The notes under the pieces were generated by a model. The model saw only the letters and a program-made list of their open reading frames with translations. It had not been told where the DNA came from and searched no databases. A DNA stretch of 35,959 nt, taken from NCBI GenBank assembly GCA_918244965.1, contig CAKJYC010000010.1, positions 1 to 35,959 of the forward strand, in the 5' to 3' direction. Within the stretch, counting starts at the first letter, position 1. Each line of letters starts with the position of its first letter. Below, piece by piece: positions 6,741 to 31,158 of the stretch. The DNA is from Clostridiales bacterium. Lineage in GTDB: Bacteria > Bacillota > Clostridia > Christensenellales > CAG-138. The translations under genes and the position numbers were made by a program.

Positions 6741-6760
6741 GTACATCAAATTGATACATT

Positions 6761-6834
6761 GTCTGCCGATATAGGTCCGGATGGATGGCCCGGACGTTTC
6801 TACCGCGGCGCCGCAGCTGCGACTATTGGGAGAC
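6761..6834 (+). promoter_or_regulatory. Purine (guanine-type) riboswitch aptamer
   Basis: The purine aptamer layout is visible. P1 pairs GTCTGCCGA (6761-6769) with TTGGGAGAC (6826-6834), allowing one mismatch and a wobble. P2 pairs GTCCGG with CCGGAC around a GATGG-containing loop. The hallmark GTTTCTACC joins P2 to P3. P3 is GCGGC with GCTGC, and GACTAT follows it. The C in GACTAT occupies the position that pairs with ligand; adenine riboswitches have U there, so this one should bind guanine, hypoxanthine or xanthine. Its place before xpt is classical. Confidence 0.92.
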
Positions 6835-6875
6835 GGGGAAGCGCAGGGCGCGTGCCTTGCGGTTCCCGCGTATCG

Positions 6876-13582: not shown

Positions 13583-13650
13583 CGCAGGCTGTTGAAAAGG
13601 GAGGCAGAAGAACTATTCTCTAAAGGGTGGTTTTCAAACAATAATGAGTT

Positions 13651-13684
13651 GACGGAGGAAACGCATCAATCCTCCGTCTTTTTT
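13651..13684 (+). terminator. Intrinsic terminator after YidC-phosphatase copy 1
   Basis: GACGGAGGA (13651-13659), a ten-base loop and TCCTCCGTC (13670-13678) form a perfect 9-bp stem followed by six T residues. Confidence 0.88.
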
Positions 13685-13690
13685 CTATCG

Positions 13691-13820
13691 CTTGGCTCCC
13701 CTGTGCAAGGGGAGCTGTCGAGGCTTTGCCGAGACTGAGGGGTTGTTAAACTAGGGATTGAACACAACAACCCTTCCGTCAGCCTTCGGCTGCCACCTCC
13801 CCTTACACAGGGGAGGCAAG
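13691..13820. mobile_element. MITE-like element, family B, with 55 to 57-bp imperfect inverted repeats
   Basis: The left arm (13691-13747) begins CTTGGCTCCCCTGTGCAAGG and ends GGTTGTT. The right arm (13766-13820) read on the other strand begins CTTGCCTCCCCTGTGTAAGG and also ends GGTTGTT. The arms agree over most of their length, and each contains inner hairpins. No coding sequence is present. Single arms of the same sequence occur inside the CapA-like gene at 29872 and 29962. With the hairpins and terminator it fills most of the 585-bp gap between genes. Confidence 0.75.
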
Positions 13821-14034
13821 ATCGATTGCATCGGAAGAGCGCACTTATACACCGCCATGCGGCGGTGATACCCTCCTGCGTCGGGATGTGCGCTTTCCGC
13901 TGTCGCCTTCTTTTCTCCAGTTGACTGGAAAGTATGATATGAACCGAACGATAACGGGATTATTGTCGTCACATGCCGCAAAAGCCGAAACCATCTTGGC
14001 TTTTGACCACGCGTGCACGTCCTCGCCGTTTCGC

Positions 14035-29709: not shown

Positions 29710-31158
29710 GTGAAGAGAATCATCCGACAACTGATTTGCTGGAGCATGGCGCTGTGGCTGCTTGCGTGCGGCGGGCAGACGGTTGCGCCTGCCTCTGAAG
29801 CGCCCGAAACGATCGCGCCGACGGCCGTGCCGCTGCCGACCGGGGAAGAGGAGGTCGTGCTGCAGGTGACGACAACCCCTCAGTCTCCTGCGGCGACAGC
29901 GCCCCTTGCACAGGGGAGCCAAGAGCCGACGAGCGCGCCGACAGAGGAGCCGACGCCCGCAACAACCCCTTCGTCTCCTGTGGAGACAGAGCCCCCTGCA
30001 CAGGGGAGCCAAGAACCGACGGAGGAGCCGACGGCAGCGCCGGGACCGGTCCGCGCGACGATCGGCGCGGTCGGGGATATCATGGTGCCGAGCTACATCA
30101 TCGACGACGCGAAAACGGGAGCGGGGGAATACGATTTTTCGGCGCTGTTTGCGCCGTTTGCCGAGCTGTTTCAAAGCGTCGATCTGATGTGCGGCAACCT
30201 CGAAACGCCGCTTGCGGGCGCGGAGACCGGCTATACCCAGAAGAAGGACGCCAAGTCGAACGCATTTCTGTTCAACGCGCCGGATTCCGTGCTGGATACG
30301 CTGAAGGCATACGGGGTGGACGTGCTGACCACCGCAAACAACCACTGTCTCGACCGCGGCGCGGCGGGATTGTACCGCACGGTCGAAACGGTCCGCGCGA
30401 AGGGCTTTTATCAGACCGGGACGTTTTTGAACGCCGAGGACCGGCAGAAACCCTGCATCGTTGAGGTCAACGGGATCCGGATCGGGATCGTCGCGTCGAC
30501 CAAGAAGGTCAATTCCGTGACGTCCGGCAGCATGGAGGAAACGGAGCGGCAGACGGCGATCGGGTATCTGCAGAAGGGCGAGGGACTGGCCGACGACGTG
30601 ATCGGGGATATCGCACGCACAAAGAGCGCGGGCGCGGAGTTCGTGATCGTGTTTGCGCACTGGGATTTTGAGAACGACAAGCCGGCCGACAGCAGGACCA
30701 AGGCGCTTGCAAAGCAGCTGTTCCTTGCGGGCGCGGACTGCATCATCGGCTCGCATCCGCACCGGGTCAAGGGCGCGGAATACATGACCGTGCAGCGGCA
30801 GGACGGCCCGTACACGGGGCTTGTGCTGTACTCGCTCGGCAATTTCTCGGCCAACAACGATTTTGAGAAGATGGTGGGGCTGTTCGTCGAGCTGACGCTG
30901 GAGAAGGCGCCGGAGACGGGCCGCGTGACGCTCGTTGACGCCGCGGTGCTGCCGACGATCACGATCCGCAGAGGCGGCGACAACAAGAAGCAGGGCTTCA
31001 CCGTCGTGCCCGCGTACGCCGATCCGGATGCGGTCACGGGACTTTCGTCGCCGCTGACAAAGTCCGAAAAGGAGCTGCTTTCGCGGGCGCGCGAGCATGC
31101 GTGGAAGCGTGTCGGCACGGCGGCGGGGCTGCGGGCGCTGGATGCGCCCGGCAATTGA
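29710..31158 (+). CDS. CapA/PgsA-type metallophosphoesterase-fold lipoprotein
   Basis: The 482-residue protein has a short lipoprotein signal ending LWLLAC, with C20 as lipid site. A Thr/Pro/Glu-rich linker (about 25-112) follows, then a CapA domain (about 114-430) with GAVGDIMV, GNLETPL, TTANNHCLDRG, FAHWDFEN, IIGSHPHRVKG and LYSLGNFSANN. These are the metal-ligand motifs of the CapA (PgsA) family linked to polyglutamate capsule and to poorly known cell-surface functions. It acts outside the membrane. Two 30-codon stretches of the linker are encoded by DNA matching one arm of the MITE-like element at 13691. The start is GTG at 29710, with GGGGGGAG upstream. Confidence 0.92.
   Translation: MKRIIRQLICWSMALWLLACGGQTVAPASEAPETIAPTAVPLPTGEEEVVLQVTTTPQSPAATAPLAQGSQEPTSAPTEEPTPATTPSSPVETEPPAQGSQEPTEEPTAAPGPVRATIGAVGDIMVPSYIIDDAKTGAGEYDFSALFAPFAELFQSVDLMCGNLETPLAGAETGYTQKKDAKSNAFLFNAPDSVLDTLKAYGVDVLTTANNHCLDRGAAGLYRTVETVRAKGFYQTGTFLNAEDRQKPCIVEVNGIRIGIVASTKKVNSVTSGSMEETERQTAIGYLQKGEGLADDVIGDIARTKSAGAEFVIVFAHWDFENDKPADSRTKALAKQLFLAGADCIIGSHPHRVKGAEYMTVQRQDGPYTGLVLYSLGNFSANNDFEKMVGLFVELTLEKAPETGRVTLVDAAVLPTITIRRGGDNKKQGFTVVPAYADPDAVTGLSSPLTKSEKELLSRAREHAWKRVGTAAGLRALDAPGN
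29872..30013 (+). repeat. Two direct MITE-arm-like repeats inside the CapA-like gene
   Basis: Copy 1 (29872-29923) and copy 2 (29962-30013) are 52 bp each and start 90 bp apart, exactly 30 codons. Both begin ACAACCCCT and end CAGGGGAGCCAAG. Read on the other strand they match the left arm of the element at 13691-13747. Both are read in the same frame and give PLAQGSQEPT and PPAQGSQEPT. Confidence 0.8.

Follow-up and report, generated by a model that had tools for sequence, protein, structure and literature searches.

The DNA analysed here (the window, 35,959 nucleotides of a Clostridiales draft contig) encodes a CapA-type lipoprotein whose linker contains two in-frame copies of a dispersed hairpin repeat. 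Very probably, a ~54-bp REP-like unit with two hairpins, mostly intergenic and dispersed over the genus and other Clostridia, was inserted singly and in frame into an existing Thr/Pro-rich, disordered linker; tandem duplication of a ~90-bp segment, comprising the unit and some linker codons, would then have extended the linker to ~96 residues, where orthologues have 53-80. The insertion would have been retained through tolerance, the CapA linker accommodating additional hydrophilic residues, and the same process appears to have recurred in other disordered segments: the linkers of DnaX (tau) and of a GH3 lipoprotein, and the tails of a Lit-domain protein and of a large membrane protein.

Two repeat copies in the linker of a CapA-type lipoprotein

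The gene, the tandem copies within it, and the intergenic inverted pair to which they correspond are located as follows.

29710-31158, forward strand: CapA-type lipoprotein gene, 482 residues, PGA_cap domain (PF09587) at residues 117-381
29872-29923, forward strand: copy 1 of the repeat unit (arm A in reverse), coding for linker residues 55-71 in codon phase 0
29962-30013, forward strand: copy 2 of the repeat unit, coding for linker residues 85-101 in codon phase 0, as in copy 1
29872-30051, forward strand: two 90-bp tandem units, 69/90 identical (repeat part 46/52, remainder 23/38 ungapped)
13690-13822, forward strand: intergenic inverted pair of the repeat unit, 133 bp, arm A ~13691-13747, arm B ~13765-13821

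The protein is a CapA/PGA_cap lipoprotein by both domain and anchor: it scores 207 bits with the Pfam profile PF09587 against a cut-off of 27, and a lipobox-like LLAC, read from the sequence, ends in Cys20, which is nearly invariant across 17 aligned rows. A Thr/Pro/Glu-rich linker spans the distance from Cys20 to the PGA_cap domain. In an AlphaFold model built with 17 aligned rows, ten-residue blocks over residues 21-100 have a mean pLDDT of 35-53, and values are mostly >75 in the domain from about residue 114. Both repeat copies lie within this low-confidence, probably disordered stretch ahead of the folded domain.

The two copies, 52 bp each, correspond in reverse complement to a single arm of the inverted pair, confirming the opposite-strand match proposed by an earlier sequence-only reading. 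The 21-base arm core, allowing up to three mismatches, occurs at exactly four sites in the window, against 0.00 expected from 100 shuffles: both arms of the pair and minus-strand 29902-29922 and 29992-30012. Copy 1 aligns locally with the reverse-complemented arm near-perfectly apart from an inner loop shortened by 4 bases; genome-wide, copy 1 matches at E = 1.5e-10 and the copy 2 core at E = 2.6e-4. As that reading had also stated, the copies are spaced by exactly 90 bp and share a codon phase, encoding TTPQSPAATAPLAQGSQ and TTPSSPVETEPPAQGSQ. Low-complexity Thr/Pro codons could resemble a repeat by chance, and T/P/E-rich linkers do occur in the orthologues; however, this is ruled out by the shuffles and by the other T/P-rich CapA linkers, which score no unit, and the similarity covers the hairpins and the CCCCTTGCACAGGGGAGCCAAG end, unlike T/P codon usage. 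We assign chance likeness a negligible probability.

A CapA match is found in 29/61 genomes (E<=1e-20, own genome included). A unit model applied to loci L010-L040 has its sole match in L011, the window's own, and the repeat is absent from the other 29 CapA-type loci fetched, L010 being apparently the same locus as L013. The 14 genus orthologues measured, a set that omits a second CapA copy in G009 with a different N-terminus (L040), have 53-80 residues (median 69) between the lipobox Cys and the domain, versus 96 in the window's protein, so that the linker is shorter in 14/14. The genus orthologues have T/P/E-rich linkers of their own; therefore, the repeat entered an existing stalk. The sequence-only reading named as refutation the same linker DNA in orthologues from genomes lacking the element, and the comparison did not refute it: no unit lies at the 29 other loci, and G013, with no unit match at E<=1e-4, has a CapA orthologue with a different linker sequence. 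Insertion is presumed from orthologues at 33-64% protein identity, over a poorly aligning region. The earlier proposal that insertion and in-frame duplication lengthened the stalk stands insofar as the segment is repeat-derived, the linker is the longest against the 14 orthologues, and duplication is likely; the stalk itself, however, pre-existed.

Copy 2 differs from copy 1 at 6 positions and from each of 78 other distinct units at 8 or more, and GTCTCCTG and CAGNGCCCC are common to both copies and present in 0/78 other units. Because these two shared states are absent from all 78 units, a single insertion followed by a 90-bp tandem duplication is favoured, although not proved, by the sequence comparison. 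Similarity also continues in part beyond the unit. Weighing against duplication, however, only 23/38 positions agree ungapped outside the 52-bp part of the 90-bp periods, and only 7/20 in the bases preceding each copy. Alternatively, two closely related units, alike in orientation and phase, could have inserted independently 90 bp apart, with no duplication. Such a course is suggested by copy 1, which has four nearer relatives among the other units (3-4 differences, versus 6 from copy 2), by the inner hairpin GTCTCC-TGT-GGAGAC, which by eye is perfect in copy 2 and has one mismatch in copy 1, and by DnaX of G003 and G009, each with two units at separate sites. Against the shared states and the extended similarity, we regard it as unlikely and prefer insertion with duplication.

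Structure, spread, and inverted pairing of the repeat unit

The sequence-only reading took the 133-bp pair, as a "MITE-like element", for the dispersed element. When the genus was searched with this pair, the listed matches mostly covered one arm, and the dispersed unit is instead the single arm of ~54 bp. Unit matches occur in 17/23 genus genomes (E<=1e-4), with up to 49 in G016, in 32/101 genomes of a family sample, and in 24/196 of a class sample, each count including the window's own genome. The genomes are fragmented drafts, with some units at contig ends, and the loci fetched yielded 192, later 219, distinct units.

The unit has sharp ends, flanking information falling to ~0 just beyond it (175 units), and terminates in ACAAC and in AAG or GAG (28 aligned units). 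Two six-pair hairpins are formed, with 94.3% of cells paired across 28 aligned units and 38 two-sided changes, whereas shuffling gives 11.2 on average and slid partners no more than 9. These compensatory changes support both hairpins, and the unit is a REP-like repeat of ~54 bp with two covarying hairpins. Inverted pairs of the unit are found too, with both arrangements represented (13690-13822 and L004). No Rfam family matches the unit.

The inverted pair of the window lies within a larger block.

13607-13865, forward strand: 259-bp block enclosing the inverted pair, sharing 95-98% identity with the left end of a ~1.25-kb terminal-inverted-repeat (TIR) element of other species

The reference "MITE-like element" is thus an inverted pair of two units, nested in a block related to this larger element. 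Near-identical 133-bp copies in other species were considered as recent MITE movement and rejected, being carried inside the larger element; they are therefore uninformative on the repeat unit's own mobility. The ~1.25-kb element has ~27-bp terminal inverted repeats and one GNAT-like gene, with no transposase in the copies studied (L042-L046, L112), and the window contains its left end only. Its copies are 98-99% identical between species at different loci, and in 4/5 copies the two flanks pair as arms of one T-tailed hairpin, as though the loops of intrinsic terminators were the element's insertion sites. A sub-threshold resemblance to the SpF39 sRNA at 13596-13684 (29.1 bits, gathering threshold 60) spans the TIR end and a terminator-like hairpin. 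Elsewhere in the window, a purine riboswitch aptamer is found at 6747-6845 (Rfam RF00167, 42 bits).

In-frame copies in other proteins, their orientation and codon phase

By a six-frame coding test, 18/219 distinct units are internal to coding sequence, the remaining 201/219 failing the strict test for such a position. The window is ~88% coding by a rough count; in-gene copies are therefore strongly depleted. Two other criteria were dropped: a first coding-potential criterion flagged 34/192 units, many ahead of gene starts or antisense, and a 60-codon criterion lost true cases in low-complexity linkers. All 18 in-gene units have one orientation and 16/18 share one codon phase (phase 0, TTP...), the exceptions being L139 and a partial remnant in L009. 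Because a phase-0 peptide profile had partly guided the choice of some copies, the DNA-chosen subset (13 of the 18) is less biased; in it, phase 0 accounts for 11/13, or 12/14 with CapA copy 2, which the final coding test misses and which was added by hand as phase 0.

In-frame units are distributed over five protein families in eight genomes. DnaX linkers contain units in 5 of the 21 genus orthologues read (the window's own genome G000, G003, G007, G009, and G010), with two units each in G000 (partial), G003, and G009, and the units lie near one site in three species. A Lit-domain protein has units in its tail in G016 (three, 132 bp apart), G001, G003, and G009, Pfam having been run on the proteins of G016 and G003. 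A unit is also present in the anchor-proximal linker of a GH3 lipoprotein of G009 (L067), and a large membrane protein of G000 and of G011 has the unit in its tail.

Three further peptides were observed beside these cases. EASPLAQESQEPD, in another lipoprotein linker of the window's own genome (G000:C73), was left out of the counts and may, on weak evidence, be a decayed relic of the unit. A membrane protein tail (G000:C82; L005/L166) has DDMSLTGHEIPAER... periods beside a repeat unit, which seem to be another repeat family read in frame. ADPGVPP-type peptide repeats in G011 (L139, L204) occur in two unrelated proteins, at the tail of the large membrane protein and in the linker of DnaX, which suggests a further coding repeat family.

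The earlier term "domesticated" is not supported as it stands, since it implies a benefit to the cell. The corresponding explanation, that the insertion was selected for function since a longer stalk raises the catalytic domain further off the membrane, draws on the linker being the longest among the measured genus orthologues, on the retained duplication, on the GH3 lipoprotein of G009 with its own anchor-proximal unit, and on the DnaX units clustering close to one site in three species. However, orthologue linkers have 53-80 residues, units occur too in DnaX and at the end of the Lit protein, neither of which needs a stalk, and the depletion of in-gene units is as expected for insertions that are tolerated rather than sought. 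We therefore consider selection for stalk length quite improbable and favour tolerance, under which retention in the CapA linker would be neutral.

The sequence-only reading attributed the frame to its freedom from stop codons. This does not hold: in 120 full units, the forward frames are open in 116 (+0), 114 (+1), and 98 (third) cases, and the reverse frames in 43, 82, and 81, and with +1 open nearly as often as +0, openness cannot single out phase 0. The share of P/S/T/Q/E/K/G/A residues is highest in phase 0 (0.72, versus 0.51-0.66 in the other frames). If nine independent events are counted, a number that is the analyst's own judgement, the binomial probability of eight or more in phase 0 is 3.6e-5 when the frames are weighted by openness. 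The simplest reading is that the phase bias would arise from selection against less soluble peptides, a targeting preference being the alternative. The CapA insertion was probably kept because the linker tolerates the soluble TTP...PLAQGSQ peptide that the unit encodes when read in this direction and phase. A bolder interpretation, to which we give a small probability, treats the repeat family as a frame-selective portable linker, with protein compatibility possibly one force shaping the repeat itself, because its in-gene copies keep almost exclusively to one orientation and one phase, the phase richest in P/S/T/Q/E/K/G/A, and return to particular disordered segments, namely the tau linker of DnaX and the tail of Lit.

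Relation to known repeat systems

These Clostridia are known mainly from draft genomes. In them, small hairpin repeats keep supplying sequence to disordered protein segments, among them that of the clamp-loader subunit DnaX. The orientation and codon phase of in-gene copies provide a countable test of selective filtering by the encoded peptide, and annotators should be cautioned that low-complexity linkers may be repeat DNA. A literature search, covering subscription journals only in small part, found no account of this repeat in Clostridia.

According to the accessible part of the source, REPs are palindromic units of 20-40 bp, of which the GTAG and CGTC types occur as singles and inverted dimers, mostly intergenic with some in ORFs (PMC3733652). 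REPs within ORFs include those in replication and repair genes and double insertions per ORF, and neutrality in flexible linkers has been suggested (PMC3733652, same part). Compared with REPs as described there, the Clostridia unit is likewise a short hairpin repeat of many copies, mainly intergenic, with singles, inverted pairs, and some in-gene copies; in contrast, it is longer (~54 bp), has two hairpins, and shows a strong single-phase bias. Neither a GTAG nor a CGTC end tag is present in the 28 aligned units.

Like BIMEs and REPINs, inverted REP pairs with RAYT transposases, the unit occurs as singles and inverted pairs in both arrangements, as far as those systems are described in the sources at hand; unlike REP/RAYT systems, no partner transposase was found. 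Y1_Tnp (PF01797) matches are patchy (12/23 genus genomes) and none is present in G016, the genome richest in unit matches, and none of 17 Y1_Tnp loci contains a repeat unit. RAYT was rejected as mobiliser on these two grounds. A MITE would have terminal inverted repeats, a target-site duplication, and a parent transposon. The arms at 13690-13822 are inverted, although the unit mostly occurs singly, and a parent transposon of the unit was not found.

Rickettsia palindromic elements (RPEs) are the classic example of repeats carried in frame by proteins. As far as the accessible portions of the reports extend, RPEs are palindromic, about 105-150 bp long, lie in frame within many unrelated genes, and are retained in the proteins, gmk being the case of a conserved enzyme (PMC2229807, PMC10969869). 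On this partial description, the Clostridia unit similarly inserts in frame into diverse genes with the frame kept (five protein families, eight genomes); it differs in its length of ~54 bp and its location in linkers and tails, and the likeness is one of mode of action, with membership not claimed. The Clostridia unit is thus of a kind already known from REPs and RPEs, with a phase bias sharper than that reported in the accessible parts of PMC3733652, PMC2229807, and PMC10969869.
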